DNA of 64,000 nucleotides from Zanthoxylum bungeanum (Eukaryota > Streptophyta > Magnoliopsida > Sapindales > Rutaceae). Every line of letters starts with the position of its first letter. Position 1 is the first letter of the stretch. A program made the translations under genes and the position numbers. The DNA lies in assembly GCA_019454045.1 (NCBI GenBank), contig SKCR01033467.1:1-64000 (forward strand). The letters are read 5' to 3'. Positions 23,773 through 64,000 of the stretch are shown here, piece after piece. The notes below the pieces were generated by a model. The model worked only from the letters and a program-made list of their open reading frames with translations. It was not told the origin of the DNA and ran no database searches.

Positions 23773-25708
23773 TCAAGCAGAGTTACACCGAGGTGCACTC
23801 TCATTGTCCATCAGGACACACAGAAGAAGATGTGAATACATCTTGCTTTTAACCCAAAACTTTCTAGGAATCTCATCCACTTGAGAATTCCTAGTCAACA
23901 AATTAAGTTTCTCACTAAGAAATTTTGTCTGTTTTGTTAGTGTAGAAACTTGAGAAGCTAGATTTGAAGAGTCAAATCTAGGTGACACCTTTTTAGGCCT
24001 CTTCTTTTGCTTGTGAAGCATGAAGCACTTAGGCCTAATGTGTTCCAGCCTTGCCACAATGATGGCACACAGGCACAAACCTCGGATGAGAGCGAGGATT
24101 ACCCACAACACCTCTAGATTGAGGTTGGGAAACAGGATGAGGAATAACAGGAGGAAAAACATGACTACGCACAACAGGTTTCTTACCTAAGTCACGTTTA
24201 GCTGCTACAGGCACAGCTTTGGAAGAAGACGCCTTATCACAGTTAGGCTCAAAATTAATACCTAACATACGGTCCACATTCTTATTCTCACTAGAAAATA
24301 CAGACAATTTGGTTCTAGTATTTTCAAGTTCAGTTTCTAATATTTGGACCCTATTAATTAGACCTCTATTTCTCTCCTCTAGGTCATCTACTATCAAAAG
24401 GCTCTGCTCAAATTTGGCTTGAGCTTCATTCTTTTCTAGCTCAACAGCTTTCAGCCTTTTATTGACCTCTATGTTAGTCTTCTTAATAGCTAAACTCTCA
24501 TTAAACAGTTCAACATAAGCTACCTGAAGACTTTCCTCATCTACAGACTCATCAAGAGAGACTTCTGAATCATCATCATTAACCACAATCTCTCTCTCAC
24601 CAGTCACACTAGCAGTAAAGGCAATAAAATTTTTCTTGCCTTTAGGAGACTCATCAGAAGAATAACCACCTTCTGAATCACTAAGAGATGCTGCCATGGC
24701 TTTCTTGCCTTTAGCCCTAAGGTATGTAGGGCACTCTGGTCGAATATGCCCATAGCCTTCACACTCATGGCATTGGACATTATGGGATCTACTACCCATA
24801 TCCTCTCTAGACTCACTCCTGATATGCCTATTCTCTTTAGGCCTATCCTCCCTATCCCTATTACTGCTATGGCCATTTTTCTTAAGTTTAAGAAATTTCT
24901 TAAACTTCTTTGCAAACAAGGCCAAATCACGATCTGTGATGGTATCACCATCACCAGACGTATCATGCACAACTTCCTTAGCGATTTTCATCGCAAACGT
25001 TTTTGGCTCTCTATAACCAGGAAGCTTTTTCTCATAAACCTGCAATTTTCCTACGAGCTCATCTAAATTAAGCTGATCGAGGTCATTACTTTCCTCGATG
25101 GCGGTGATTTTGGGTAGGAACTTATCAGGTAGGGATCTCAGGATTTTCCTAACTATCCTACTGGTAGGAATAGTCTCACCTAGGTTAAAACTAGAATTAA
25201 CGATATCGTTAATCTCAGCATAAAATTCATCAAAGGTCTCATCATCTTTCATTCTGGCGACCTCAAACCTAGTAGCTAAATCCTAGATTATTTTCAATGT
25301 GCCTTAGCACAGTCGCAAGAGTCCCAAGCATTCTATTCACACATTGAGATCCTTACTCAGCACAGAATGTGTCATGTCATCACATTCTAAAGATGTCCCA
25401 AGATCTATGGATCACAGCAGATCCTCCTACAAATTGAGTAGATACACAGCAACACACATGGCACACCATGTATGGCATTAACAGCCTTCTGTCCTATTGC
25501 GCATCAAATTCATCTTTGGTCCAGGTCAATTTGTCTTTAGGGGAAGTGACCCCATCAACAGTAACAACGGGAGGTTTCCACCCGTATCAACAGTCATCCA
25601 GACCCTCTCATCTAAGGACTTAAGGAAAGCTCTCATGCGAACCTTCCAATGCAAATACTCCGTGCCATCAAAAAATGGCGGACAATTTAAGGGTTGACTA
25701 CGCTCCAT
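23773..25708 (-). pseudogene. copia-type gag, broken
   Basis: Three minus-strand segments in different frames. 25526-25708 is the gag N-terminus with the YLHWKVRMRAFL motif typical of plant copia (UBN2-type) gag. 24035-25252 is the main body: KDDETFDEFYAEIND helix region, a first CCHC knuckle CHECEGYGHIRPEC, a long acidic/coiled-coil stretch and a start of a second knuckle (CHHCGKAG). 23773-24174 continues the second knuckle in another frame. Between 25253 and 25525 the frame is full of stops. Structural gag only, with no pol downstream. Not functional as read. Confidence 0.85.
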
Positions 25709-32629: not shown

Positions 32630-34190
32630 TTTGATATTTTTTTTACGGCTCGGGTCTGCTCTTGTACCGCCGAGTCCGTTTTGTTGATATATGTTTTACG
32701 GCTCGGGTCTGCTCTTATACCACCGAGTCCGTTTTGTTGATATATGTTTTACGGCTCGGGTCTGCTCTGGTACCGCCGAGTCCGTTTTGTTGATATATGT
32801 TTTACGGCTCGGGTCTGCTCTTGTACCGCCGAGACCGATGTTTCTTTCCGGCTCGGGTCTGCTCTTGTACCGCCGAGACCGATGTTTCTTTCCGGCTCGG
32901 GTCTGCTCTTGTACCGCCGAGACCGATGTTTATTTCCGGCTCGGGTATGCTCTTGTACCGCCGAGACCGATGTTTCTTTCCGGCTCGGGTCTGCTCTTGT
33001 ACCGCCGAGACTGATGTTTCTTTCCGGCTCGGGTCTGCTCTTGTACCGCCGAGACCGATGTTCTTTCCGGCTCGGGTCTGCTCTTGTACCCCGCGAGACC
33101 GATGTTTCTTTCCGGCTCGGGTCTGCTCTTGTACCGCCGAGATCGATGTTCTTTCCGACTCGGGTCTGCTCTTGTACCGCCGAGATCGATGTTTCTTCCT
33201 GGCTCGGGTCTGCTCTTGTACCGCCGAGACCGATGTTTATTTCCGGCTCGGGTCTGCTCTTGTACCGCCGAGACCGATGTTTCTTTCCGACTCGGGTCTG
33301 CTCTTGTACCGCCGAGATCGATGTTTTTTCCTGGCTCGGGTCTGCTCTTGTACCGCCGAGGCCGATGTTTATTCGGCTCGGGGCTGGATTTCGTTCCGCC
33401 GAGGCCGTTTGGTTATTCGGCTCGGGGCTGGATTTCGTTCCGCCGAGGCCGCTTGGTTATTCGGCTCGGGGCTGGATTTCGTTCCGCCGAGGCCGCTTGG
33501 TTATTCGGCTCGGGGCTGGATTTCGTTCCGCCGAGGCCGCTTGGTTATTCGGCTCGGGGCTGGATTTCGTTCCGCCGAGGCCGCTTGGTTATTCGGCTCG
33601 GGGATGGATTTCGTTCCGCCGAGGCCACTTGTTTATTCGGCTCGGGGCTGGATTTCGTTCCGCCGAGGCCGCTTGGTTATTCGGCTCGGGGCTGGATTTC
33701 GTTCCGCCGAGACCGCTTGGTTAATCGGCTCGGATCTGGATTTTATTCCATCGAGGCCTTATGGTTTATTCAGCTCGGGGTCGGGTTACGTCCCACCGAG
33801 TCGGCTTCTTTGGACTGGGGATGTAATATTCCCCTAGAGCCAAGTCTTTCTTTCAGCTCGGGGTCGGGTTACGCCCCACCGAGTCGGCTTCTTTGGACTG
33901 GGGATGTAACATTCCCCCAGAGCCAAGTTTTTCTTTCAGCTCGGGGTCGGGTTACGTCCCACCGAGTCGGCTTCTTTGGACTGAGGATGTAGCATTCCCC
34001 AGAGCCAAGTCTTTCTTCAGCTCGGGGTCGGGATACGTCCCACCGAGAGACTTATCATCGGCATGGGATCGAAGCATCTCCCACATGGTCGGCCCTCTAT
34101 TGGTCTGGGGAGGTAACATTCCCCCAGAGCCAAATGTTCTTCTCAGCTCGGGATCGGGTTACGTCCCACCGAGTCGATCGTCATCAGCAT
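32630..34190 (+). repeat. tandem repeats of the element's 3' region (53-, 44- and about 84-bp units)
   Basis: Four 53-bp units (32640-32840) are followed by about twelve 44-bp units (to 33370), then nine variant 44-bp units with a GGGGCTGGATTTCGTTCCGC core (33370-33740), then about five units of roughly 84 bp (33770-34190). All keep the core CTCGG...CCGAG, an inverted repeat able to form a hairpin. The array is open in all three plus frames over 300 codons, so the long ORFs here are artefacts. Confidence 0.9.
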
Positions 34191-44900: not shown

Positions 44901-47430
44901 TTAATGTCCATGATATTAAGATTATAGGCACATTAAGAAGCCTGCATGAGTACTGGAAGAAAGGAGGAAAAAAATTCATATACCTGATCCCAACTAGTAT
45001 GAAAGTGAGGTTTACTTGAGTATCGATAAAGTTTATCTATTATTATAAAGAAAATTCTCTCAGAATGGGAAAAAGGTGACCAATTCAAATTGTAATAAGT
45101 TAAGTTGGAAGTGCATGTGCATCTTCATGTTGCATTGAGGACTATGCCAACTGCAAACATAAGAGAGAGAAAAACACCTGTTCAAGTCGTTGATGAAAAA
45201 CATCCATGTGCAGCAAGCCTAAGAAACCGCACCTGTAGCACAACATGCTTTCATTACCAAAAAATAGAAAAAGGAAACTCCATACAATCAGTCACAAACT
45301 TATTAATTACAGAAGTAGGTTTTTGATTTTTAGTGCAAGTAAGATTAATCACTCAGTAGCAGATGCCACACCTAAAACCCAGTCCAAGTGCTGTGCTGGT
45401 CTCTTTAGCAACTAAGACGCTGGGATCATTGCACGTGAGTCTCTCTATTGCATGGTTGAGTGCTTCAAAATCAGATCCATCAGCGGGGTAAAGGCCAGAG
45501 AACACCATATGTTTTGCAGGCTTAAAACCTACATTTTCAGGGCACATAAAAACCCATGTCAAAGGGAAGGTAGTATAAGGACCACCGAAACCAGAACTAC
45601 TTTATTCAAGTAGAAAATGAAAGGAAGATAGTAAAACATAACATGTAGGGCCCTTCCAGCTGCAACAACTGCAAACTGCACTATTAAGTAAATGTAACAA
45701 AGCAACCAAAATAATCACTTTCCTAACCAAATAGTAAGCCTAACTCAACAAAAACTCCAATTATTAACCTAGAGATAATCTCCTTATGATTGGAAAAATC
45801 CCTGTGAAGAGGCTAACAACAAAACATTAGGATAATCTTAAGTGGGAGCGAAGGCATACCTGGAAGAGGCTCTACAATGCTTTTACTGTGATAGAGAGTG
45901 TCGCCAATGCGTGCATCTTTCGTTGATCGCATGCCAGTTACAACATAACCCACTTGTCCAGTTAGAAGGACCCCAGTAGGAGTGAGTTCAGGATGCATAA
46001 TTCCAACATCCAGAATTTCATAAACTTGGCTAGTTGCAACAGATGAAATCTTATCTCCTTTGCGCAGAGTTCCGTCAACAACTGCAACGTGACAAATTAC
46101 TCCTTTGTATTCATCGTAATAGGAATCTAACAAAAGCATACGCAAAGTTGAATTGATAATTCCGGGAGGGGGAGGTATCCGCTCTATGACTGCAGGAAGG
46201 ACATGCTCAAGACCCTGCCCTGTTTTTGCAGACGTCAAAAGGGCTTCTCCAGGGTCAAGATCAAACATTGATTTCAGCTGCGCTTTGACACGATCAGGAT
46301 CAGCAGTCGCCTGATCAATTTTGTTTATGACAGGTATTATCTTCAGGTCAGATTCAAAAGCAAGATAAAAATTAGCAACAGTTTGTGCCTGAACACCTTG
46401 GGCAGCATCCACAACCAAAAGGGCGCCCTGGCAAGCTGCCAGGGATCTCGACACTTCATAGCTGAAATCCACATGACCAGGAGTGTCAATTAGATTTAGT
46501 AGAAAACTTGATGGATCATGAGCTTCACCAAGGCCTGGGCCGTTCAACTCATGTTTGTAAAACATAGTAGCTGTCTGAGCTTTAACGGTTATTCCCCTTT
46601 CTCTCTCCACCTAAAAATATCCAAACTTCATCCAATAAATATTTTCCCAAACATAAATATATGAAAACAACCAGAATGAATCATCCAATAAATATTTTCC
46701 CAAACATAAATATATAAAAACATTTCAAGTAGTACGAACGTAAAGGCCATCATCTCAAGCCTATTTAGTAGAGCGTACTAGCTTATTATAATATGGCGAA
46801 ATTTAACCACCAATTCAGAAACACCTGTCTTCGTTTTGAAAGCAAAATCTAAAATAACTTCTCATATAAAAAAAAAAATAGCATTTTCAAATGAGAGTGT
46901 CAAACAAAGAATCCTACTCTCACAAACTAAAATGAACAAACACGCATTGAATAAACCAATAAGCCAAAACAAAACCATCAAAAAAAAAAAAAAAAAAAAC
47001 TAAATACCAACCTAGGCAAAATCTAAAAGCAACCCACTTCATATTTCATCCCAAATCACCATATAAACAATCAAAAAATTCGCTTTTATACCTGCAACTT
47101 ATCAAGATACTGAGGCTGCCCATGCCCTCTTTTGATAGTGCCAGTGAGCTCCAAAAGCCTGTCAGCGAGCGTTGACTTTCCATGGTCAATATGGGCAATT
47201 ATGGAGAAGTTTCTGATTCTCTCAGGTGGGTATTGGGTCAAGTCTACAATTGGGTTATCTCTGTTGCCGTGTTGGCGGGAATTTGAAGAAAATGAACGAG
47301 TTGAGTCAAACGAGTAGTGGTGGTTTTGGCTATGACTGAATCTAGGGTTTAATGGGTTGGGTTTAAGGATTGAAGAGAGTATAAATTGAGATTTTTTAAG
47401 GGTTTTGGAGGCTCTGTAGAGAGAACCCAT
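41980..47430 (-). CDS. mitochondrial translation factor GUF1 (LepA/EF4 family), 675 aa
   Basis: A ribosome-bound GTPase of the EF4 family, thought to assist mitochondrial translation under stress. Eleven coding exons on the minus strand: 47092-47430, 45860-46610, 45372-45528, 45178-45232, 44519-44586, 44340-44444, 44182-44253, 42802-42915, 42528-42668, 42376-42435, 41980-42145. Every junction is GT-AG and keeps frame (2028 nt). Residues 1-60 are Ser/Arg-rich with few acids, like a mitochondrial presequence. The G1 loop AHIDHGKS is at 79-86, with switch [21 protein letters not shown] and SAK following. The LepA C-terminal signature [20 protein letters not shown] lies in the last exon. The start is the Met of MGSLYRASK, not the upstream in-frame Met at 47526, because the presequence begins there in relatives. 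It is the mitochondrial paralogue rather than the chloroplast one. Confidence 0.95.
43073..44090. mobile_element. terminal-inverted-repeat element in a GUF1 intron
   Basis: It fills most of the 1.27-kb intron between exons 44182-44253 and 42802-42915. The left end (GCTGCTTTCCCCCCTCC, 43087-43103) and the right end (GGAGGGGGAAAAGCAATT, about 44056-44073) form imperfect inverted repeats continuing into CCACCCCCT/AGGGGTGGGGG. The interior has an (AT)n tract and two direct copies of about 200 bp (43612-43830 and 43833-44027). No ORF. Superfamily not assigned. Confidence 0.6.
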
Positions 47431-48596: not shown

Positions 48597-50063
48597 TCAA
48601 TGGCAAGCTGAAAGGCAATCCAATTGATCGGATAGTTCCCCAGTTGTCGTTATCATGAGTGCATTTGGGTTCTTTATTGATCCTGCTGCCTCATCTTCTT
48701 GCATTGTGGTATTGCCTTGCATATCTTGGTGCATACTGATTGAGAATCCCCTTGACTGCTGCTGTGGCCCTTCATAGTCTATGTTATTCTCAGTGCCTTT
48801 TATGATCATATCTCCAAACAAGGAAGTGTTCAGAAGCATGGAAGGAGTATCATTTGTACACTTGTTCGATCCTGAGATTTCGGGTGGCGAAAACAAAAAG
48901 TTGTTTGGAAGGTTTCCAATGAAAGCAGGAGGTACAGATTGTTTATAGAAGGTCGGATTGAGGGATTTATAGGAGGGGATGTCGAAAGCTGAGAAACTAG
49001 CAGTAGAGGCTTGCTGTAAGTCATTGTTTCCACATAACTGTATGACAGAACCAATTTCAGTTGTGCAAGAAACATTTTCTGAGCTAAATTGAGTACAGTG
49101 TGCCCCTTGGGAGAACCAAGAATGAGACATAGCTCTTTGTGCCATGGAATTTGTTTTCTTGAATATCCTACAAATTGCCCATGCATCCTGTTTAGAAATG
49201 AAAAGATTTTATGTTCAAAAATATTTATCTGAAAAGCAAACAACAATTGGGTAAAGAGATAGGACCATAGTGTTATTACATTTGGAGGAATGATTTTGTC
49301 TAAGAACTTCTTCTGTGGTGTTGAGACTGTGAGAGAAGGAAGGCGAAATTCGTGCATCATCCAGTCCGTTTTTATCCCCTTAGCAGCTCTGCCTCTGTAA
49401 AACACTAAGGACTTCTTCAAACCAATACACTTGGAACCATCCGATGAGTAAATAGGCCTATCAGTACCAGTTGCCTTCCAAAACCCGGCTCCTGTTACCC
49501 GGTTTGGCCTTGCACTGTTTCTGTATTTCTGGTCCCTTTGACAGTAGAAATACCACTCTTTCTCTCCTGTTTTCGCGAGCACTTCTAGTACGAAAATGAC
49601 CAAAAAAGAGGTGTATTAACAACCAAGTTTAGTACTTGGAAGCAAGTTATGCTAAGCACATCAGCAAGAGAGATCGAAAAGTACTCAGGAAGTTTTAGAC
49701 AATAGAAAGTAGAAGTATAAAAATAGAAATGATGTTGAAATTTTGTAAACGTTGTGTGTTTGTTCATGAAAACAGTTCTAATGTCAACAACTTGACAATT
49801 ATTTCAGTACAAGTAATATTCAACAAAAGTAAATGGATCAAGCAACTACTGAAAGTCATGCAGCAAAGATAAACCATCTTACTTGGAAGATCCCAGGGTT
49901 CATATTTGTATATATCAACTTGCTTAATGAGCTCAATGGGCAGAGATCTCTGTTGAATCTTTCTCCTGAGGTAAAATCCAATAAGCTCCTCATCTGTAGG
50001 ATGGAACCGAAAACCAGGCAACATCACATCATCAAGCTTGTCAATATCATTCTTCTCATCCAT
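48597..50063 (-). CDS. NAC-domain transcription factor, FEZ-like; C-terminus frameshifted
   Basis: A nuclear NAC factor. The FEZ (NAC009) clade controls root-cap stem-cell divisions, but function here is inference. Exons (minus): 49883-50063, 49280-49584, 48597-49187, giving 358 aa. The NAC subdomains are intact: [20 protein letters not shown] (A), PWDLP (B), [14 protein letters not shown] and [17 protein letters not shown] (C), [18 protein letters not shown] (D) and [12 protein letters not shown] (E). Oddity: at about 48690 the reading frame shifts. The frame used stops at 48597-48599. The alternate frame continues through a Pro-rich stretch ([17 protein letters not shown]) to a stop at 48496-48498, and resembles what I recall of the clade's normal C-terminus. 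Either a real one-base loss truncates the activation region, or it is an assembly error. An additional small intron seems unlikely. Confidence 0.9.
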
Positions 50064-51905: not shown

Positions 51906-52406
51906 CTCTAGCTGAAGAAATCGACATACTTGAGCTGCAAATCTTCTTCGATTCATAAATCCTCTGTTGAAAGACAAGTCCTTTTCTAAAGATACGAAGC
52001 TAAGTGCAAGAGAAGTGTGAACATCTATAAAGCTAAAGTGAGTGCCCTTTTTTAATCTTGAAAACGAATTTGTCTGAAGCTATAAATAACAAAATGAATT
52101 GTTTATGTGAAGTTGTCATCTTAGTGGTAGGCAATGTGGACCTGTTTGTGGTTGGGTTGCATAGTGGTCCCAAAATGGTCCCCAAATGCATTTGCTGCGT
52201 TACTTTCAATGTTTGCTTTTTATTTTTTGAGAGACGATTTTCTTTTCTTAGATTTGTTGTAGTTAGTTAATTGCATATTTTTTGTCAAAAAAGCTTTGTG
52301 CATGAATGTGTATTTATTCATGCATGTCATTTTCTGAATGAATTTTTTCTTTGTTTGCTCTGTAAGCTAATTTTTAGGTCTTGTTTGCTCTGCACTAGGG
52401 TTGATA

Positions 52407-53129
52407 ATGGGTGACAGTGAGCAACCTACTGAAAAAAAAGATCCACCTATAAACAATGAGCAACCTGCTGACAATAATGATCCAACTCTAACCAATCTAC
52501 CAGCTGACCACATCAGTTTTAGGGACTTTGACATTGATGATATAGACTTTGGTGATTTCTGTTTATATGATGACTGCCCTCATCAAACTTCTGATGAGAT
52601 TTGTGTTAATGTCCCTTACCAAACTGATGATGAAGATGATGAGTTGCAAGAAGCTAGGAATAATGTTAGAGAATATATGGTGAGGATAAAATCATTGAAT
52701 GGACAATCGATTGAACAAGAGAATAATGGTGAGGACATTGTATCAGATGGTGAGCATGCCGATGATAATGGTGATGACATAGCTGATGTCATTGCTGAGG
52801 AGAATAATGTAGGTGATGGATGTGAAAGTGATGGGAATGAAAGTGTATACCATGACAGTGATGAAAATAGGATTGAGTTTAGTGACACTGATGGGGATGT
52901 GGTGCATGATGAAAGCTGTAAAAAGAAATCACAAATTTGGTTTGATACAAAGGTTGTCATTCCTACATTTTGTTTAGGCATGACATTTAAGAACATTGCA
53001 GAGGTTAGAGATGGTATAGCTAGGTATGCAGTTGCAAAGGGTTTTCCAATTAGATACATAAAAAATGAACCTAGGAGGGTTAGGGCACAATGCAAAAGTG
53101 GTTGTCCATGGGTTTTATTAGTTAGTATG
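52407..53129 (+). pseudogene. MULE transposase, N-terminal part, disrupted by a retrotransposon
   Basis: An open frame starting MGDSEQPTEKK (an ATG two codons earlier is also possible). A long acidic Asp/Glu-rich region is followed by the MuDR N-terminal DNA-binding domain: FKNIAEVRDGIARYAVAKGF, then IRYIKNEPRRVRAQCKSGCPW. At 53129/53130 the frame runs into the LTR of a Tat-like element inserted in antisense, so the DDE catalytic domain and SWIM finger are displaced beyond the window edge. A small intron further upstream is possible but not needed. The transposase is not functional as it stands. Confidence 0.88.
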
Positions 53130-53764
53130 TGTGGACGCTGGATTTCGCCCTCGGTCCACAATCGAGAATTTGTAGTTGGGGGCGCTAGCGATCCTGCAAA
53201 ACAAAGGTAGAGTGAGCGGGAGTAGACTACCCACCGGTGTGGTGGGTGCCGGGGGCACTCCGACGCTCAAGTCAGTGATGAAGACGAGCTGTAAATAATG
53301 GAAGAGCGAGGCTTGACGTACCTTGACTTCTGTTGACTACCGTGAGGGCAGTGGGTCGGAGGTTCTGAGAGCTCTGGAGATAATATGACTAATCTGAGAG
53401 TTGTTAGAAGTTGAATATGATCGAGCTATGGATTGTCCAGCTATGGATTGTCCCGCTATAGATTGTCCAGCTATGGATTGTCCAGCCCCTTCTCGTAGAC
53501 TTTCTTCTCTTATATACACACTCTCGGGAAACGTGTGTATTTATTACCTTTAATTACTCGTTCGTTGGATGTTGGAAACTGTCGAGTTATGTGAGATATT
53601 TATGAGTCTGGACGTTTCTTGATTTGGTATCTATTGCGTCCGTTGGCCCTCTTGATGACAATGAGCTTGGGCCCGTGAGGCTTCTTGGTCTGATATTGGT
53701 CGGTCTCGAGGTAAAATGTCGATTTTACCCTTGGGCCCAAATTTGGCCCGTACAGTTTGTCCCA
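53130..53764 (-). repeat. 3' LTR of the minus-strand Tat-like element
   Basis: 635 bp, reading on the minus strand from TGGGACAAACTGTACGGGCC to ...CCAGCGTCCACA. It contains a 15-bp minisatellite (GCTATGGATTGTCCA, four copies, 53428-53487). Confidence 0.85.
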
Positions 53765-53889: not shown

Positions 53890-55010
53890 CTTCAAGAGCC
53901 ATTGGGGAAGTACCCAATCGATTGAACCAGATGAAGGTCAGGATATAAGTCGTACGACATGTGTATTCCATGTCTACAACTTGACTCGATATGAGTCCGT
54001 GGGGGATGTCCCCGGTCGACTGAACCAGATGATGGTTCATGAGTTATTTCATTAGACAAGTCTATGAACTGAAGGAAGTCCATGTCTTCATTTGACTCGA
54101 CAAGAGTCATCTGGGAATGTCCCCGGTCGACTGAACCAGATGAGGTTCAGGATATAAGTCATACGACATGTGTATGTCTACAACTTGACTCTACATGAGT
54201 CCATGAGGGATGTCCCCGGTCGACTGAACCAGATGAGGTTCAGGGTGTAAGTCATACGACATGTGTATGTCTACAACTTGACTCTACATGAGTCCATGGG
54301 GGATGTCCCCAGTCGACTAAACCATATGAGGGTTCATGAGTTTATTTGACTCGACATGAGTCCGTGGGGGATGTCCCCGGTCGACTGAACCATATGAGGG
54401 TTCAGGAGTTTATTTGACTCGATATGAGTCCATGTGGGATGTCCCCAATCGACTGAACCAGATGAGGTTCAGGTGTGTAAGTCATACGACATGTGTATGT
54501 CTACAACTTGACTCTACATGAGTCCATGAGGGATGTCCCCGGTCGACTAAACCATATGAGGGTTCATGAGTTTATTTGACTCGACATGAGTCCGTGGGGG
54601 ATGTCCCCGGTCGACTGAACCATATGAGGGTTCAGGAGTTTATTTGACTCGACATGAGTCCATGTGGGATGTCCTCGGTCGACTGAACCAGATGAGGTTC
54701 AGGGTGTAAGTCATACGACATGTGTATGTCTACAACTTGACTCTACATGAGTCCGTGGGGGATGTCCCCGGTCGACTGAACCATATGAGGGTTCAGAAGT
54801 TTATTTGACTTGACATGAGTCCGTGGGGGATGTCCCCGGTCGACTGAACCATATGAGGGTTCATGAGTTTATTTGACTCGACATGAGTCCGTGGGGGATG
54901 TCCCCGGTCGACTGAACCATATGAGGGTTCAGGAGTTTATTTGACTCGACATGAGTCCGTGGGGGATGTCCCCGGTCGACTGAACCAGATGAAGGTCAGG
55001 ATAATCCCCA
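53890..55010 (-). repeat. tandem repeats homologous to the 69-bp array at 90-1400
   Basis: About 16 units of mostly 70-75 bp. Read on the minus strand they align to the left array: CTGAACC/GGTTCAG hairpin with 6-7 nt loops (ATATGAG or AGATGA on the plus strand), GTCGACCGGGGACATCCCC, and the GACTC/GAGTC hairpin. Longer variants carry an extra phrase (GTCATACGACATGTGTATG). Confidence 0.9.
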
Positions 55011-55019
55011 TACTACGGG

Positions 55020-56810
55020 TCGAAGAACCATGAGAGTCTTCAATGTCTTTTGGACCAAATGAAGGTCTATGAAAGTCTTCACTCTACAAACCCGACGAAG
55101 GTCCAAGACTTTTTCCTTATCATACTACTAAACCTGATGAAGGTCATCACAAATTCTATTGATGAGGGTCCATGTGACTACTGTCGTGTGGACCTGTCGA
55201 ATGGACTTGATAAAAGTCCAAGAAAGTTATTATTTCTCACCCTACTAGACCTGAAGAAGGTCAATGAGGGTTCTCATTCCTCATTCTTCAAGACCTGACA
55301 AAGGTCAATGAGGGTATAATTCCTCATTCTACAAGACTTGTAGTCTGAGACCATGTCGTCTGAAGACCATGAGACTACGGTCGAATGAACCTGATGAAGG
55401 TCCATGAGGGTTCTCATTCCTCATTCTACAGGACCTGACAAGGTCTATAAGGATATAATTCCTCATACTACAGGACTTGTAGTCTGAGACCATGTCGTCT
55501 GAAGACCATGAGACTACGGTCGAATGAACCTGATGAAGGTCCATGAGGGTTCTCATTCCTCATTCTACAGGACCTGACAAAGGTCTATAAGGATATAATT
55601 CCTCATACTACAGGACTTGTAGTCTGAGACCATGTCGTCTGAAGACCATGAGACTACGGTCGAATGAACCTGATGAAGGTCCATGAGGGTTCTCATTCCT
55701 CATTCTACAAGACCTGACAAAGCCATTGGGGGGTCTTCATTCCTCATTCTACAATCCTCATTCTACAAGACCTGATAAAGGTTAGTGAGGGTTTTCATTC
55801 CTCATTCTACAATCCTCATTCTACAAGACCTGATAAAGGTTAGTGATGGTTTTCATTCCTCATTCTACAAGACCATATATGCAGTGTCGAATGAGATCTT
55901 TAACGAGTGCCAAGCTTCACATGGTAGTGTCGAATGAGATCCTTAACAAGTGCTAAGCTTCATACGTGTAGTGTCGAAAGAGATCCTTAACAAGTGCTAA
56001 GCTTCATACGTGTAGTGTCGAATGAGACATCTTCCTCATGCTGAGTCTCCATACATGTAGTGTCGAGTGGGATATCATTGCCAAGTCTGGTAATGTCGAC
56101 TGGGATATTATCACCACATACATGTAGTGTCGAGTGTGATATCCTAATACCGATTCTCCATACATGTAGTGTTGAGTGGGATACTCAACAAGTGTCAAGT
56201 CACATATTATATTGTCGACTGAGACACCAATAACAATTACCAAGCTATATGTTGTAATGTCGACTGGGACAGCCATATCAAGTCCTAAACTATAAGTTGT
56301 AATGTCAACTATAAAAAGTGCAAGCCATACCTGGTAATGTCGACTGGGATATTATCACCCCATACATGTAGTGTCGAGTGGGGTAGCATCCTCATGATGT
56401 GTAACCGTGTAATGTTGATTGGAACCTTAGGCAACTCAGCCTACTTATTTATCATATCGTATGAAACTTCAGCCAATAACTGATCTTTCCTTCATGTCGT
56501 GTCGACTGGAACCTTAACCCCTAACTAAGACATGTTCCATGTCGTGTCGAGTGGTGTTTCAGCCCCTAGCTATGAGTTCTTCATTGTCGTGTCGAGTGGA
56601 ACCTCAGCTTCCAGCCAAGACTTCTTCCTTGTCGTGTCGAGTGGACTCTCTATCAGATACTAAGCCTTCTTCCATCTGGTAATGTCGACTGGGATGTCCA
56701 TGCCAAGTCTTCATTTGTGTATTGTCGTATGGGATATCATCACTCCAATTCCTAATACATGTAGTGTCGAATGGGAGTTTTATGAAGGATAATTTTTTTT
56801 AAAGTAACCA
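55020..56810 (-). repeat. further, more degenerate tandem repeats of the same element
   Basis: 55320-55735 holds three copies of a 140-bp unit (with ACCTGATGAAGGTCCATGAG). 55735-55870 holds two 65-bp units. 55870-56790 holds about fifteen loose units built on ATACATGTAGTGTCGA(G/A)TG. No coding capacity is recognised. Confidence 0.8.
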
Positions 56811-56928: not shown

Positions 56929-57697
56929 TCAGTTGTAGGGTCGCTTGGGCGGATTTGAGGTTCTCTCATTGTGATGGCTCGTGGAATTCTCTCTTTTCTT
57001 GTTTCTCTTATCCTCCTCCCATCTAATCTCAAATTGTGCCTGGGCCATGGCATGATCCATAGTGTAGCATCGAAATTTAGTGAGCTTTTTGTAGAGTCCA
57101 CTTTCTGAAAGTAATCCATTTCTGAATGCTTCCACTGCAGTAGGCTGATAGAGATCTGGGATTGTTATCCTCTCTCTATTGAAGCGAGCCACGTAGCTTC
57201 GCAAGGACTCCCCTCTCTGTTGTTGGATTGCATTAAGGTCATTGGTGGTCTTTTCAAGCTTGCAAGAACTTGCAAAATGCTCCACAAATTTATTAGCTAG
57301 TTCCTGATATGACCCAATAGTCCTGAAAGGTAGATTGAGGAACCAATTGAGGGCTGGGCCTGCCAATGTTTCTCCGAATCCTCTACACATTCCAGCTTCC
57401 CTTTGATGAGGAGCCAGATCAGTCGACATCATCTTGTATTTGTAATGGATCATATGATCATTCGGGTCTGTGGATCCGTCATACAGCTTCATATCTGGAG
57501 AACTGAACTTCCTTGGTAGTTCAATGGAAGTGATGGTGTCCAAAAATGGGGTATCTGAGATCGTGCCGGCTCGGCTTCTTCTCACTGGTAGTCTGACACC
57601 AGGTAGGCTAGAGAGAATTGCATCTTTGAACTCCTGCATTTCCTTGCGCATAGTGGAGGTAACTTGCCGTGCTTGGTCGATTGAGGAGACATGTTGA
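56929..57697 (-). pseudogene. Tat-lineage gag, 5'-truncated by a retrotransposon insertion
   Basis: About 255 codons of a Retrotrans_gag core read on the minus strand: SPDMKLYDGSTDPNDHMIHY, AGPALNWFLNLPFRTIGSYQ, RGESLRSYVARFNRERITIP. The open frame seems to start at 57729, but its first 11 codons are antisense of the Athila-like LTR, so that Met is not the gag start. The true N-terminus lies beyond the inserted element. The frame stops at 56929 without a zinc knuckle or protease, consistent with loss of everything from late gag through pol. Confidence 0.88.
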
Positions 57698-59773
57698 TGA
57701 TGAGTGGTATTTATATCACTTATTCCCACTCATTTGACCTAATATTTCGTATAGTTTCTCGGGTTTGATGAACGTTTTGATGTGTTTTAGTTTATTTTGC
57801 AGATAAAATAATATCGGGTCTTAATGAAATCATTTAGGATGAAATGTGGATCAAATAAGGGCAATTATTGGACTTGATATATTAATTTTGAAGATTGGAA
57901 ATTTGAAAGGGCGTTTTGACGAAGTGCAGTTTTGGAAATTCCAGTTTTGTGCATCTGTCGTATTTTGGGCATAACTTTTTACTCAGATATCGGATTGAGT
58001 TGATTCAAGTTCCAGATTAAAGAAGACTCAAAGATCTACAACTTTGAAAGAGAAAATATTTTCGAATTCTGATGATTTCATGACCGAAATTGATGAACCA
58101 TCCAGAAGTGTGTGGAGTGTAATTATTAAAAGTCATTATCATCATTTTCAAAGCAAAATATTAATTAATTAATAATTAATAAAAATTATCAAATCAACAC
58201 CAAACAAGATAAGCAATTAATGGAGCAATTATGGATTTGGTGGAGTAATTAGTGGAGAAATTAATAATGGATTTGGTGGAGAATTTGATGGATGATTTGA
58301 TGTTGGCAAAATTTTGCCTATAAATACCAAGCCATTTCATTTGTAAAATTCATACTTTCTTCTTTGAAATTCTTAATGAATAAATAAGAAGATTGTATCT
58401 AGTTTGTTTATTTTTAGTTTTCAGTAATTAATTTTCAGTTTCGCACTTTCTTTTCTTTACTTTTCAGTTTTTACTTTCCGCAATTTACTTTTACGCACAG
58501 TACTTTTCTTTCTTTAATTTTTCAGTTTTTACTTTTCAGTAATGAGGAGGTAATTCCCAAGCTAGGGTGAAAGGTAATTCTTTTACTGTTACTATTTAGA
58601 TTAATCTCCCTTAAAAATAATATATTCACTATTTAAAATACTGATTAATAAAGGATACCGCTATATTGGTCGGTTGGCAATTCAATTTAATCTGGTTTAA
58701 ACCTGACTAATCAAGGATACCGCCAGATTGGTCGGTTGGTAAAATAATTTTGGTACCGCCTTTATGGCTGGATTATGGACAAATATTACCGCCTATATGG
58801 CTGGTTGGACTTAATTTGACTTAATCAGGATACCGCCAGATTGGTCGGTTGGTAAAATAATATCACAAGTTTATATATTATTTTATGGGAGATATCTAAA
58901 TTAGTAGTAGTAAAAGTAATTCCTTTTACCTTAGCATTTTATTTTATTGTAATTTACTTTTCAGCTTTTACTTTACCGCAATTACTTTCAAGCATTTTCA
59001 TTTTATGTCTTTTACTTTTAAGTTTTTATTAGCCCTAGTTATGTGTGGTAACTAAATTAGTTATCTGGGGTTGTGATGAAATCCAATATCACCGTTTTAT
59101 AAGGGTTAGATTATAGCTTGGGTAATATAAAGATTTATTTATTGTGTCTTAAACTTAATGCTTTTTCATTAACTGGCCATTAATAAAATTGATCTGGTAA
59201 ATCTAAAATGAACTAGACATAGGGATTTTAGGTTTCAGCCTTAGACTCAATAACCCACGATCTTCCTTGAGGATAGATAACCCTTTAATAGATTTCCTTA
59301 CAGGATAGGAATATACCTGTCGGGCGGGGGTAGCCATAATTGGGACTTAAACTTAAAGAATCCAGATAATTTGGTTGACATAGACATATGGTTCAATTGG
59401 GTTAAACTGGGTATTTGTGTCTGACCATCGACAGAGGCTTACACATAATTTAGTGTTCCAGGTTAATAAATCAATATATTACCCAACTTTAATATAACCA
59501 CTTCATCTTTAAAATGATATTGGAAGAAATCACAACCCTAGATAGTTTTTAATATTGAATTTTCTTCAAACCTATTTTCGACAATTTTATTTACTTGCTT
59601 TTAAATTTAGAATCATCACCATTTCAAATCAATCAATCAACTTGTTAGATATTAGTAATCATTTGACCTCATAAAATTAATAGTTTAGATATTAAGTCCT
59701 CGTGGGATCGATATTTTTATACTACTTGAACGATACGTGCGCTTGCGTTATACGTGTGTGTTTACGCCGGTCA
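57698..59773 (+). repeat. 5' LTR of the Athila-like element (about 2.08 kb)
   Basis: It begins TGATGAGTGGTATTTATATC and its end is inferred at GCCGGTCA, six bases before the primer site. The interior has repeated phrases ATACCGCCAGATTGGTCGGT and ACCGCC...TGGCTGG (58655-58860, about five copies). A TATA-like CCTATAAATACC lies at 58317-58328. Confidence 0.88.
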
Positions 59774-59779
59774 AGTTTT

Positions 59780-59798
59780 TGGCGCCGTTGCCGGGGAC
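59780..59798 (+). other. primer-binding site, tRNA-Asp
   Basis: TGGCGCCGTTGCCGGGGAC is the exact complement of the 3' end of plant tRNA-Asp (…CCCCGGCAACGGCGCCA), the primer used by Athila-type elements. Confidence 0.9.
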
Positions 59799-59910
59799 TT
59801 ATATTTCTTGAGTTGTTAATTTTGAAACTATCTAATTTACTTGTATCTAATTTTCTTTATCTTTATCTGTAATTTTTATTTTTTTTATTGTATTTTCAGG
59901 TGATTTAAAA

Positions 59911-61164
59911 ATGGAACACTACTGGGAGATTGAAAGATTACGAGCTTTACAAGAAGATACACCCCACATCTGGGAGCAACAGTCCGGTTTTCTGAGGCCT
60001 GTTGTCGAGCCCAATGATTATCACTGGATGCCAGAACCAAGTAATATTACATTTGCTCATCAGAACTCAATGTGGAGATGTGACATATGTAATGGTGACC
60101 ACCCAAGCGATTATTGCGAATACAACTACCATCCAGGGTGGCAGAACTATCAAGATCCTTCATGGTACGAAGAACCATCACATTTCACAGAATCACATTT
60201 TCCATCTTATCCACCATCTTCCTTCGATCCTTATCAACAACCAGAACCATCAGAGGAAGATCAATTGATTCACATGTTCAAAGAACAGACAACTCGATTT
60301 GATGCACAAATTCAAAGTAACACAGAATCCATACGGAGAATGACAGATCGGATCAGACAATTAACAGAAAACCAGAATTATATACCTCAAGAACCATTCT
60401 CAGATAACACTGATGAAGCCTTCGAGTACCAATCATTTCAGAATGACATTTCAACAGAGGAGGAGGCTGAGCAGTATCAACAACCAGAGGTATCAGTTCA
60501 GGAGCCCGAACCGGCAAAGTCTCGATTTGATTTTTATTATTCTGACTCTGACGAGGAGGAAGCTGATCTATTTGTACCAACTGCACCAACAACGGAGGAT
60601 CAAACTTTCAATCCTCAAAATGAAGATCTTGGAGCATGCTTTACCATGATGTTTGAAGAAGATCTATCTGAACCATCCATTCCAGTCGTATCAGAGGATG
60701 AAAACCTAATGTCAGAAACATCTTTGCATCCTCGGGTTGACAATTTTGAAACATGTATTTCACAGATGACAGATGAAGAGATGAATACAAGAATTTTACA
60801 ATACATATGTGAAGAGAAGGTGGAGCAAGAAACAGAGCAAATGGAGGAGCAAATGTCTGACCTTAATAAAGATCCAGAGCATTCAGGAGAAACATTGCTG
60901 TTTTGGGGAGTACAAATTAAAGATATCAACCAGAAGCTTGACAGAATGGAATTTCCATTCCAAGTCAAACATCATACGAGACCTCCTGATTTTCTTTCTT
61001 TCTTTGCAGGAACCACTGGAGTAACAAGGAGCAAAAAGGTGGTACGAGCACTAAATGAGACAAAACTCTTTTTGCCACTTTACCGTTGGAAGAGACCCTT
61101 CAAAAGCAACGCTCACGGGATTGTCTTTAATCGGACATCCAAAACGACATTGAAACCTCCTTAA
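59911..61164 (+). CDS. Athila-type gag-like protein, 417 aa
   Basis: An intact acidic ORF just downstream of the primer site. It holds a variant knuckle C57-x2-C60-x3-H64-x4-C69 (CDICNGDHPSDYC), the spacing I associate with Athila gag. A Gln/Glu/Pro-rich region with several acidic clusters (for example SDSDEEEAD near residue 212) follows, then a basic C-terminal tail. I do not see the Retrotrans_gag core, so it may be only the C-terminal half of gag fused to other internal sequence, or a derived ORF. Expected role is RNA packaging, but this is inference. The start is the first ATG after the LTR leader; the frame is open throughout. Downstream at 61207 is the Athila-type phrase GCTAGCAGGGAGGCAACCCA. 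Confidence 0.65.
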   Translation: MEHYWEIERLRALQEDTPHIWEQQSGFLRPVVEPNDYHWMPEPSNITFAHQNSMWRCDICNGDHPSDYCEYNYHPGWQNYQDPSWYEEPSHFTESHFPSYPPSSFDPYQQPEPSEEDQLIHMFKEQTTRFDAQIQSNTESIRRMTDRIRQLTENQNYIPQEPFSDNTDEAFEYQSFQNDISTEEEAEQYQQPEVSVQEPEPAKSRFDFYYSDSDEEEADLFVPTAPTTEDQTFNPQNEDLGACFTMMFEEDLSEPSIPVVSEDENLMSETSLHPRVDNFETCISQMTDEEMNTRILQYICEEKVEQETEQMEEQMSDLNKDPEHSGETLLFWGVQIKDINQKLDRMEFPFQVKHHTRPPDFLSFFAGTTGVTRSKKVVRALNETKLFLPLYRWKRPFKSNAHGIVFNRTSKTTLKPP

Positions 61165-61676
61165 CAGATGAATTTCAGTCACGTCTGGCTGAAGACGAAA
61201 AATTTAGCGCTAGCAGGGAGGCAACCCATGCAATTTGTTGTAATTTGTTTTCATATTTTGTGTGAACTTTTTAATTTTGTGTGTTATTTTTGTAGGGAAA
61301 GCACAAACGAAGCATTTTAAGACAGAAGGAATTGTGTTTGGCAATCAAAGATGAAAAACAATTCATTAGCGATGGCTGAATAAGGAATGAAATCTTGAGA
61401 CACATCTTATGAATTTATACTAAGTGAGTGGCGTATTGCGTACACATTCCGTTGCCTTAATTATTGCTTTGATTCGCTTTTCTATTGTAATTATCTTTAT
61501 TTTCGTAGACAAGATCCAGACTTTTTGACCTTTCACGATCTCTTTTGTTGTTTAGCTAACAATCGTCCTTTGGAAGATATTAGTGCTATTATTACTCACC
61601 TTTTCAGGTACTATAAATTCAGCCCGTCATTGCACTTTTGAAGGCATCCTGATTTGAAAAAGAAATACATAAAAAA

Positions 61677-62330
61677 ATGGAAGCCACTTCAAGAAGACGA
61701 GTTGAAAACATCTGTGTGTTTTGCGGTACTAGTGTTGGTACTAAGCCACAATACATAGAAGCAGCACAGGAATTGGGTCGAGTCTTAGCAGCAAGGAATA
61801 TGCACTTAATATATGGCGGAGGAAATCTTGGACTTATGGGGATCGTTTCAAAGGCCGTACAGGAAGGAGGCAGTCACGTTTTGGGAATCATCCCAAAACC
61901 CTTGGCAGAGGCGAATCTTATTGGATCATCAAACGGAGAGGAACTGATCGTGCCAGGTATGTCTGAACGACTGGTAGAAATGATTAACCGTTCTGATGCT
62001 TTTATTGCTTTGCCAGGTGGCTTGGGCACATTGGAGGAAATTTTTATAGTACTATCTTGGGCGAACCTGAACATACACCAGAAACCGCTTGGACTACTCA
62101 ACGTTGATGGATTTTATGATTTTCTTTGTGTGTTTCTTGATGATGCTCGGAGAAATGGGTTCGTGTCGAAACCTATGAAAGAACTCCTCTTTACTGCCAG
62201 AACTGCTCCGGATCTAATTGACCAACTCATAGCCTATGAACCACAAGTTGACCCTTTCATTTCAAAAATAAAATGGTCTGAGGACGATCGTGGTAAGAAG
62301 CGACGAATAAATCTGGATCTTAACCTTTAA
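61677..62330 (+). CDS. LOG-family cytokinin riboside 5'-monophosphate phosphoribohydrolase, intronless, inside a retrotransposon
   Basis: In the family, LOG releases free cytokinin base from its nucleotide in one step, in cytosol and nucleus. Here 217 aa in one uninterrupted exon, whereas plant LOG genes are normally split by several introns, so it is a cDNA-derived copy. Motifs: ICVFCGTSVG (12-21), YGGGNLGLMG (46-55), LGIIPK (69-74), the catalytic/nucleotide signature PGGLGTLEE (113-121) with R98 upstream, and GLLNVDGFYD (139-148). The usual Lys after that Arg is Leu (L99). The C-terminus adds a basic patch GKKRR (206-210) and LDLNL (213-217), like an NLS plus EAR repression motif. No stops or frameshifts. 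It lies on the same strand as the element, between Athila backbone phrases at 61207 and 62391. The start context AAAAAAATGG is good. Expression would probably be from the LTR. Confidence 0.93.
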   Translation: MEATSRRRVENICVFCGTSVGTKPQYIEAAQELGRVLAARNMHLIYGGGNLGLMGIVSKAVQEGGSHVLGIIPKPLAEANLIGSSNGEELIVPGMSERLVEMINRSDAFIALPGGLGTLEEIFIVLSWANLNIHQKPLGLLNVDGFYDFLCVFLDDARRNGFVSKPMKELLFTARTAPDLIDQLIAYEPQVDPFISKIKWSEDDRGKKRRINLDLNL

Positions 62331-63649
62331 TTTTCCTGTAGAATTTCAGCTAACCAGGTATTATTTTCTAAACTCTTCTTTCACTGTTTAAGACATTGGG
62401 GACAATGTCTCATTTAGGTTTGGGGGTGAGGTATAGTTAATAGTACTTGTTTGTATTGTGTTTTTATTTTTAGTCCAAAATTTTTCGAAAAATACAAAAA
62501 AAAATTGAAAATTTTTCAAAAATTACAAAAATATTTTGCATTTTTGTGTTTTTATTTTAACTAAAAGGTGAAATTGGTAAGAAATAGCCGAGTAAGGAGT
62601 TTCCACTCTTGAGACGTATTTCAAACCATTTATTTCGAAACAAGTTAATTTTTGTTTATTTCATTTTGAATTATTTATTTGTGAATTCTCTATAATACTG
62701 ACTAAAATGAATCTTCATATGCTCATTTGACAGGTATTATCAACATATATAGTAACATACAGACATGAGCTAAAATTGAAAAGTTTGTAATATTCAGTGC
62801 TCTAGTTTAATTAGAGGAAGCATCTCAAAAAGCAATGGAGTAAAAAAAAAAAAAAAAAAAAAAAAACGTATGAGATCCGAGTTATTAAGTCTGTAAGGGT
62901 GTTTTAACACCTAGTGCCCTAAAGCCAACTGGTTTGGGAGTCACTGGCCCAAAGCTCGTTACATGGATCGAAGATGTTGCAAAAATATATATATTTGAAG
63001 TCTGAGTAATTAAGTTCGTAGGGGTGTCTTAACACCTGGTGCCCTAAAACCAACTGGTTTGGGAGTCACCGACCCAACACTCGCTACATAGATGGAAGAT
63101 ATTGTATATAAATAAAAAATTCAGAAAAATCAAAAAAAAATCAAAAAAATCAGAAAAATTATTCCATTGCTACAAAAAGGTGTGAAATCTGATAGAACTT
63201 TAGGACAAAATATTACTCTCTTATCAACTGCACTTATGACTGTTGTGGGCAAAAATGAGTTGTTTAATATTATGTTGGCTGTGTATATGAAGAATGGTAA
63301 AAATAATCGGAGAATTTACTTATTTAGTAATTTAGAAAGAAATAAAACAACTAGAAACTTGTAGTAGAAGTTTCACCTGATTAGTTACTATCTTCTTTAT
63401 TCTCTTTTCGCTTATCTTTTTGCTTTTGTGTGCATTAGTTTTAACTAACTTTTTACTTTTGTAAAATGTTTGTGGGTATCATTGCTGTAAGCCCTCACGA
63501 GACTACAACTCGTCCACTGGGGACACCTAGGGGTTTAAAGGCTTGTTGCATACGCTAAATGCAATCGTGATCCCTACGAAAGTGGCTTAGTTAATTTTAT
63601 TTTCATGTTATTTTATTTTATGTTTTGCTCGAGGACTAGCAAAATGTTA
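62331..63649 (+). other. noncoding 3' region of the Athila-like element
   Basis: It contains ACATTGGGGACAATGTCTCA (62391) followed by TTTAGGTTTGGGGGTGAGG, phrases I associate with Athila-type 3' regions. An A tract at 62843-62866 is followed by a 120-bp block repeated twice. A 65-codon ORF (63167-63364) is not credible as a gene. Confidence 0.6.
62870..63115 (+). repeat. two imperfect direct copies of a 120-bp block
   Basis: Both copies hold the phrases TAACACCT(A/G)GTGCCCTAAA and CCAACTGGTTTGGGAGTCAC, starting at about 62870 and 62995. They differ by several substitutions. Confidence 0.85.
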
Positions 63650-63661
63650 GGTTTGGGGGTG
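63650..63661 (+). other. polypurine tract of the Athila-like element
   Basis: GTTTGGGGGTG sits directly before the TG of the 3' LTR, in the form typical of Athila elements. Confidence 0.75.
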
Positions 63662-64000
63662 TGATGAGTGGTATTTATATCACTATTCCCACTCATTTGA
63701 CCTAATATTTCGTATAGTTTCTCGGGTTTGATGAACGTTTTGATGTGTTTTAGTTTATTTTGCAGATAAAATAATATCGGGTCTTAATGAAATCATTTAG
63801 GATGAAATGTGGATCAAATAAGGGCAATTATTGGACTTGATATATTAATTTTGAAGATTGGAAATTTGAAAGGGCGTTTTGACGAAGTGCAGTTTTGGAA
63901 ATTCCAGTTTTGTGCATCTGTCGTATTTTGGGCATAACTTTTTACTCAGATATCGGATTGAGTTGATTCAAGTTCCAGATTAAAGAAGACTCAAAGATCT
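63662..64000 (+). repeat. 3' LTR of the Athila-like element (start only)
   Basis: The first 339 bp match the start of the 5' LTR at 57698 base for base except for one missing T in the CACTTATTCCC/CACTATTCCC tract. The remaining 1.7 kb are outside the window. Confidence 0.95.

Follow-up and report, generated by a model that had tools for sequence, protein, structure and literature searches.

The window, a stretch of 64,000 nucleotides of Zanthoxylum bungeanum contig SKCR01033467.1, carries a recent, non-autonomous LTR retrotransposon of Gypsy type with a LOG-family open reading frame inside it. The coordinates of its features are presented in Table 1. Paired LTRs, a primer-binding site (PBS), a polypurine tract (PPT) and a 5-bp target duplication were all present, and the parts follow in the order LTR-PBS-ORF1-LOG-PPT-LTR with LOG in sense orientation. 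When the sequence was followed beyond the window (L009), GTTGA was exact at both ends of the element and the completed 3' LTR differed from the 5' LTR at 2 of 2073 compared bases. We take the PBS TGGCGCCGTTGCCGGGGACT to be of tRNA-Asp type and the backbone stretch containing GGAGGCAACCC to be of element (post-pol) type, and from this PBS type and the backbone motifs the element would presumably be Athila-like. Within the internal region of approximately 3.9 kb, which is of identical length in other complete copies, ORF1 and LOG were the only sense-strand ORFs of at least 90 aa. The gag, protease, RT, RNase H and integrase of an autonomous Gypsy element are not assembled here, and no RT was found in the window element. 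ORF1 gave no Pfam match below 0.05, had five protein relatives in a whole-database search, and is probably a gag-derived remnant. The PPT core GGTTTGGGGGTG occurs a second time at 62417-62428, which gives the LOG region the look of a segment enclosed by a PPT duplication. The element itself sits inside an antisense gag gene of Ty3 type, close to the start of that gene (56929-57697, minus strand; Retrotrans_gag, 1.9e-14). Elsewhere in the window, long tandem arrays lie at 106-1398, 32631-34047 and 54092-56672, with periods of 69, 44, 68/229 and 140 bp, among others; in some of these arrays several reading frames stay open, which yields long artefactual ORFs.

Table 1. Positions of the LOG-bearing element's parts and of other features in the window.
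Feature	Position	Strand	Basis or remark
Copia gag	24038-25282	-	
Elongation-factor GTPase fragment	45816-46610	-	
NAC-domain exon	48833-49615	-	
MuDR-type transposase fragment	52401-53210	+	
Target site duplication GTTGA, 5 bp	57693..57697	+	Partner just beyond 3' LTR, outside window (read as L009)
5' LTR, 2076 bp, TG...CA	57698..59773	+	LTR comparison
TATAAATA, likely core promoter in LTR	58319..58326	+	Inferred
Primer-binding site TGGCGCCGTTGCCGGGGACT	59780..59799	+	Motif in sequence
ORF1, 417 codons, C-x2-C-x3-H-x4-C motif	59911..61164	+	Open reading frame
Backbone stretch containing GGAGGCAACCC	61208..61240	+	Sequence
Candidate 3' splice site TTTTCAG/GTA, 69 bases 5' of LOG ATG	61606..61607	+	Simple-consensus score
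LOG-family ORF, 217 aa	61677..62330	+	Keeps catalytic Arg98 and Glu121; has Ser96, Leu99 and Ile124 at pocket positions
LOG C-terminal tail RGKKRRINLDLNL	62289..62327	+	Basic stretch and LxLxL (EAR-type) motif
Second exact copy of PPT core GGTTTGGGGGTG	62417..62428	+	86 bases 3' of LOG stop
Tandem repeat, 125-bp unit, 1.8 copies	62879..63104	+	3' internal region
Polypurine tract GGTTTGGGGGTG	63650..63661	+	
3' LTR, first 339 bp	63662..64000	+	Remainder outside window

The LOG ORF (61677-62330, plus strand) is open and intronless over 217 codons, confirming the first-pass annotation, which had described an intact, intronless LOG-family ORF in sense between the PBS and the 3' LTR. It matched Pfam Lysine_decarbox at 3e-35 and TIGR00730 at 7.8e-49, and its best solved relative was 2a33, Arabidopsis At2g37210 (1.1e-60). 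A domain match above the curated cut-off together with the LOG fold places it in the LOG family (SLOG, TIGR00730), and PGGxGTxxE and the catalytic Arg and Glu of the LOG active site were all present. An AlphaFold model of the protein had a pLDDT of 86.9 with 2a33 as its closest fold; residues 204-217 fell below 50, the tail being disordered. Against the NCBI equivalog model CtkRMPhLog the protein scored 116.9, where the cut-off is 300.

A LOG DNA query of the window's own 3.96-Gb genome returned 40 scored matches of 97-100% identity among 2217 loose candidates, and 20 of these, the window's copy included, were read as stretches of up to 10 kb. In 18 of the 20 the element was complete and built in the same way, each at its own site (part of ORF1 is deleted in L025), and the two incomplete stretches were L020, cut by a contig end, and L023, rearranged upstream. 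An exact 5-bp target duplication was found in 16 of the 18 (exceptions L013 and L014), and the LTR distance within complete elements was 0-0.016. A second sample, obtained with the canonical LOG3 protein as query, comprised the 150 best-scoring matches among 58360 loose candidates; each ran without interruption at 49-52% identity and 142 of the 150 had no internal stop, the list being biased to intact ORFs because only best-scoring matches were taken. In both samples the copies had been ranked by how similar they are to LOG or by score. Twelve second-sample loci were read with flanks, and in all 12 LOG was followed by the element 3' region and LTR start. These data show that an amplifying family of non-autonomous LTR retrotransposons carries LOG as a gene of its own. 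The earlier claim that LOG is cargo rather than a neighbouring gene is borne out by the frame that 18 of the 20 stretches, window included, have in common. No repeat of at least 10 bases was common to 61300-61676 and 62331-62950, which flank LOG, and hence nothing indicates that LOG was inserted later as a retrocopy, although a duplication of fewer bases may be present. The chance retrocopy that the annotation had named as a way of being wrong was rejected on this ground and on the common frame, LOG not being confined to the window copy. The flank before LOG also travels with it, since relatives P0011 and P0009 read through at their N-termini into sequence that matches the stretch just 5' of window LOG, around the candidate 3' splice site (E 2e-8 and 9e-5, respectively, in a search of 512 bases).

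To the same annotation, LOG copies at different sites with dN/dS well below 1 were the expected sign of an element gene, and this is what was observed. Across the 40 copies LOG had a pS of 0.065 and a pN of 0.0106, giving a pN/pS of 0.162 (codon bootstrap 0.089-0.288). Variants common to at least two copies were 28 synonymous and 14 nonsynonymous while private variants were 20 and 43 (Fisher p 0.0006), with 76% nonsynonymous expected by sites. In the second sample (12 loci plus the window) LOG pN/pS was 0.207 (0.146-0.286), with 43 synonymous and 25 nonsynonymous shared variants and 41 and 47 private ones. In contrast, ORF1 had a pN/pS of 0.58 in the 17 long loci (of 20) where a single match covered 85% or more of it, and its shared variants (53 synonymous, 135 nonsynonymous; 80% nonsynonymous expected by sites) point to weak constraint at most. 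The difference between 0.16 and 0.58 argues that selection keeps LOG in the element lineage. Mean between-copy divergence was 0.055 for the LTR (16 copies) and 0.0195 for whole LOG, 0.060 for ORF1, 0.061 for the 3' region and 0.044 for the stretch before LOG (17 copies each). As LOG silent sites, at 0.049 (20 long loci), are about as diverged as the LTR and only whole LOG is lower, amino-acid constraint and not local homogenisation explains the conservation. Since synonymous changes predominate among shared variants but not among private ones, selection acts in the lineage and is followed by near-neutral decay after insertion; single insertions decay, and the copies giving further copies retain the LOG protein, the sequence of which is thus shown to be under purifying selection within the element lineage. 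With respect to individual copies, 18 of the 40 were in frame from start to stop (17 gap-free, one with three bases missing) and 22 were broken, some perhaps by assembly errors. A protein-only neutral simulation was run for six relatives of 217 aa (1000 simulations). The mean substitution score lay above all 1000 simulations for P0001, P0005, P0010 and P0014; for P0002 and P0003 it was high yet inside the simulated range. P0003, P0005, P0010 and P0014 had fewer changes at conserved sites than simulated, and P0001 (6 vs 8.2) and P0002 (7 vs 7.9) were not depleted of them.

Three whole-database protein searches were made, with LOG, ORF1 and a canonical LOG profile, and the best 120 matches of the LOG query in 5.8 billion proteins were taken as relatives. 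Xanthoceras, Populus, Reevesia and Diplodiscus each contributed several, and gene names place some of these on different chromosomes. In the Xanthoceras gene models P0008, P0015 and P0029 LOG-type sequence occurs twice, which suggests tandem LOG copies in that genome. In a tree built with the tail removed, 39 thinned rows (window included) were set apart from 27 canonical rows and one bacterial outgroup by a branch of 99/94; unsampled intermediates are possible because only the best 120 of each search were compared.

In the available part of PMC4979012, Arg99 and Glu122 are the proposed catalytic residues and Met96, His97, Lys100, Glu125 and Trp129 (CgLOG numbers) the likely prenyl site; Lys100 is in contact with adenine as well, and replacing AMP-binding residues by alanine abolished activity, except at Ser19. 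Window LOG keeps the Met and Trp of this pocket and has His, Lys and Glu replaced, so that it lacks the plant-type pocket. Ser96, Leu99 and Ile124 were found in 40 of 40 close copies, Arg being lost to a stop in one, and a canonical His, Lys or Glu was seen in 0 of 12 second-sample loci, two of which carried letters other than the window's. While canonical LOGs each kept Arg, Glu122, Trp, His, Lys and Glu125 (114/114), the 77 of 97 relatives (200-260 aa) that end in strict LxLxL kept Arg in 73, Glu122 in 75 and Trp in all 77, and His97 in only 12, Lys100 in one and Glu125 in one. At the catalytic Arg position the 97 relatives had Gln in six and Cys or Met in two others. The earlier statement that this LOG makes active cytokinin is weakened, because three proposed prenyl-pocket residues are replaced in every close copy. 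The protein could also be catalytically weak, as Lys100 contacts adenine and AMP-site alanine mutants lost activity.

A basic plus LxLxL C-terminus was present in 76 of 101 relatives of at least 200 aa, as compared with 0 of 120 canonical LOGs, and in its strict form was absent from 25 of the 101. Among the 33 tailed of the 39 thinned rows the L positions had mean pairwise identities of 0.83, 0.94 and 0.83 and the intervening positions 0.22 and 0.20; conserved L with variable intervening positions is the pattern that the evolution of a short binding motif leaves. The EAR repression motif is LxLxL or DLNx(x)P according to the part of PMC9956375 available, and window LOG has LDLNL at its extreme C-terminus, an agreement with a motif that is short. 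Two thinned rows had the full pocket without the LxLxL tail, one (P0038) had both pocket and tail, and in the remaining 36 no more than one of the three pocket residues was left. If the tree holds, the tail would have come first and the pocket loss later.

Within 1.5 kb upstream of LOG, ORF1 was found in five of the 12 second-sample loci (L050, L052, L056, L057 and L060), and neither ORF1 nor an NABP-like ORF in L054 and L055. Five loci, L049, L051 (broken), L053, L058 and L059, have a 134-codon ORF just before LOG. Of the two versions scanned, that of L049 (820-1221) matched PF01623 Carla_C4 at 2.2e-7, above cut-off, and that of L059 matched Viral_NABP alone at 0.0069, below cut-off. The last 103 codons of this ORF had a pN/pS of 0.32 in four copies. 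A gene of plant-virus type, carlavirus nucleic-acid-binding-protein-like, is thereby seen inside a retrotransposon; in some viruses carlavirus proteins of the NABP type are silencing suppressors or transcription regulators. The ORF that precedes it, which we take to be integrase-tail-like and which has no Pfam match, was found in L049, L058 and L059, with stops in L051, and was not found in L053. Further upstream in L049 lies a presumably gag-like ORF without a Pfam match, then a protease-like ORF (0.0026, below cut-off). The idea that the sister subfamily holds pol was dropped on this L049 stretch, as the protease-like ORF runs straight into the integrase-tail-like one, so that the part from RT to the integrase core could not fit between them. 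That an NABP-like ORF is paired with LOG hints that the two formed an accessory module in an autonomous ancestor, itself not seen here.

The best explanation overall, to which we give about an even chance, is that a resident, selected LOG supplies the element with a pocket-changed, corepressor-linked nucleotide hydrolase that aids it, the mechanism being our reconstruction. The element would be transcribed from its LTR (TATAAATA at 58319), and LOG RNA would arise by splicing from 59900 (candidate donor CAG/GTGATT) to 61608, skipping ORF1, the candidate sites at 59900 and 61606..61607 having been scored by simple consensus; alternatively LOG would be expressed by downstream initiation (ATAAAAAAATGG context). 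Copying would be in trans by a Gypsy-type polymerase, probably Athila/Tat. The protein is predicted to be a LOG-fold nucleotide 5'-monophosphate phosphoribohydrolase with the catalytic pair kept and the base/side-chain pocket changed, and its basic LxLxL tail is predicted to bring it into the nucleus and into contact with TOPLESS-type corepressors. Its action there, on nucleotides or on host transcription, would favour the element, for example through dampened silencing or a proliferative state, and this nuclear action would stand in place of simple cytokinin release, which is probably no longer the protein's job. A broader account is put forward tentatively: a long-lived rosid retrotransposon lineage may have made a cytokinin-activating enzyme its host-manipulation protein, keeping the nucleotide-hydrolase centre, swapping the pocket and adding a nuclear corepressor-recruiting tail, with a sister subfamily pairing it with a carlavirus-like nucleic-acid-binding protein, as an accessory module where some other elements have env-like ORFs.

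The first-pass annotation had instead proposed an ordinary cytokinin-activating enzyme that promotes meristem or germ-line proliferation and so helps the element to reach the next generation. The LOG fold, PGGxGTxxE, catalytic Arg/Glu and Trp129 are all kept and purifying selection is strong, which speaks for this reading, but the window has other residues in place of the proposed prenyl holders His97, Lys100 and Glu125, which are invariant among canonical plant LOGs and scarcely kept by the strictly tailed relatives; we consider this reading unlikely. Selection for a benefit that acts in trans is difficult when an element exists in many copies, which counts against our preferred explanation. 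A structural role in cis, in which LOG-derived protein or RNA serves its own element (for example by binding its RNA or nucleotides in particle formation, the tail being coincidental or an assembly motif), would explain the selection visible in a high-copy non-autonomous family, and the much weaker constraint on ORF1 than on LOG also speaks for it. This role is nevertheless doubtful, since a purely structural role needs none of the catalytic residues that most relatives keep and the tail pattern is that of the EAR motif. A passenger reading, in which the element picked up a host LOG a single time and has carried it along, so that its conservation reflects host-gene function before a recent capture, has little probability and is largely refuted by the contrast between shared and private variants, by silent sites about as diverged as the LTRs and by the depletion of conserved-site changes in four of six relatives, although LTR elements do capture host genes in general, the basal members P0059 (Xanthoceras) and P0031 keep a canonical pocket and could be host genes, and the two closest relatives tested, P0001 and P0002, showed no such depletion. 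The corepressor-linked hydrolase is the proposed mechanism that we prefer.

The function of extra ORFs in plant retrotransposons is mostly unknown, and window LOG is one with a known fold, measurable selection at the level of the element, defined active-site changes and a testable interaction motif. The annotation knew of no described case; Gypsy elements with LOG-type domains have, however, already been published from Citrus and Populus, and so the kind is known. The available part of PMC9289625 (Alvarado-Marchena et al. 2022) reports a YgdH/LOG domain in Gypsy consensuses of Citrus sinensis and C. clementina, and of Populus trichocarpa with the n5 filter off, and cites Steinbauerova et al. 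2011 as in line with this. A 'lysine decarboxylase' in PMC10606437 was set aside, being in the accessible text a gene near eccDNA regions and not an element-borne LOG. Among titles and abstract openings, with most subscription journals outside reach, neither a further case nor a paper on the tail, pocket or selection was found, and no DNA relatives were confirmed in viral contig and genome contig collections. As far as these searches reach, a clade that mostly keeps the catalytic Arg/Glu, mostly lacks the three prenyl-pocket residues and mostly bears a basic LxLxL tail appears to be new. For annotation there is a warning in that some Populus relatives are named cytokinin-activating LOGL10 genes; 13 Populus LOG genes are listed as cytokinin-activating enzymes in the part of PMC3866579 available.

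Canonical plant LOG1/3 and LOG8, which are cytokinin riboside 5'-monophosphate phosphoribohydrolases, have the same fold, PGGxGTxxE and catalytic Arg/Glu as window LOG, whereas the latter is about 50% identical to them, has three pocket residues replaced, carries a basic LxLxL tail, is intronless and is borne by an element. The Citrus and Populus YgdH likewise is a LOG-family domain in Gypsy-type elements of rosids, but in the accessible part of PMC9289625 it is described as a survey domain hit, with no account of selection, of pocket or tail, of how copies are built or of an adjacent ORF. The ALKBH5-like m6A demethylase of Phalaenopsis Gypsy elements (same part of PMC9289625) is also a captured nucleotide-acting enzyme kept over replication rounds; it is a different enzyme with activity shown, whereas that of window LOG is predicted from sequence. 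The pathogen EAR proteins HaRxL21 (PMC7446885) and Jsi1 (PMC8126959), in the available parts of these papers, are likewise parasite-encoded and carry an LxLxL-type motif; TOPLESS binding is reported for them, whereas for window LOG it is predicted. Should the module prove functional, plant transposons would resemble pathogens in manipulating hormone, nucleotide or corepressor pathways.
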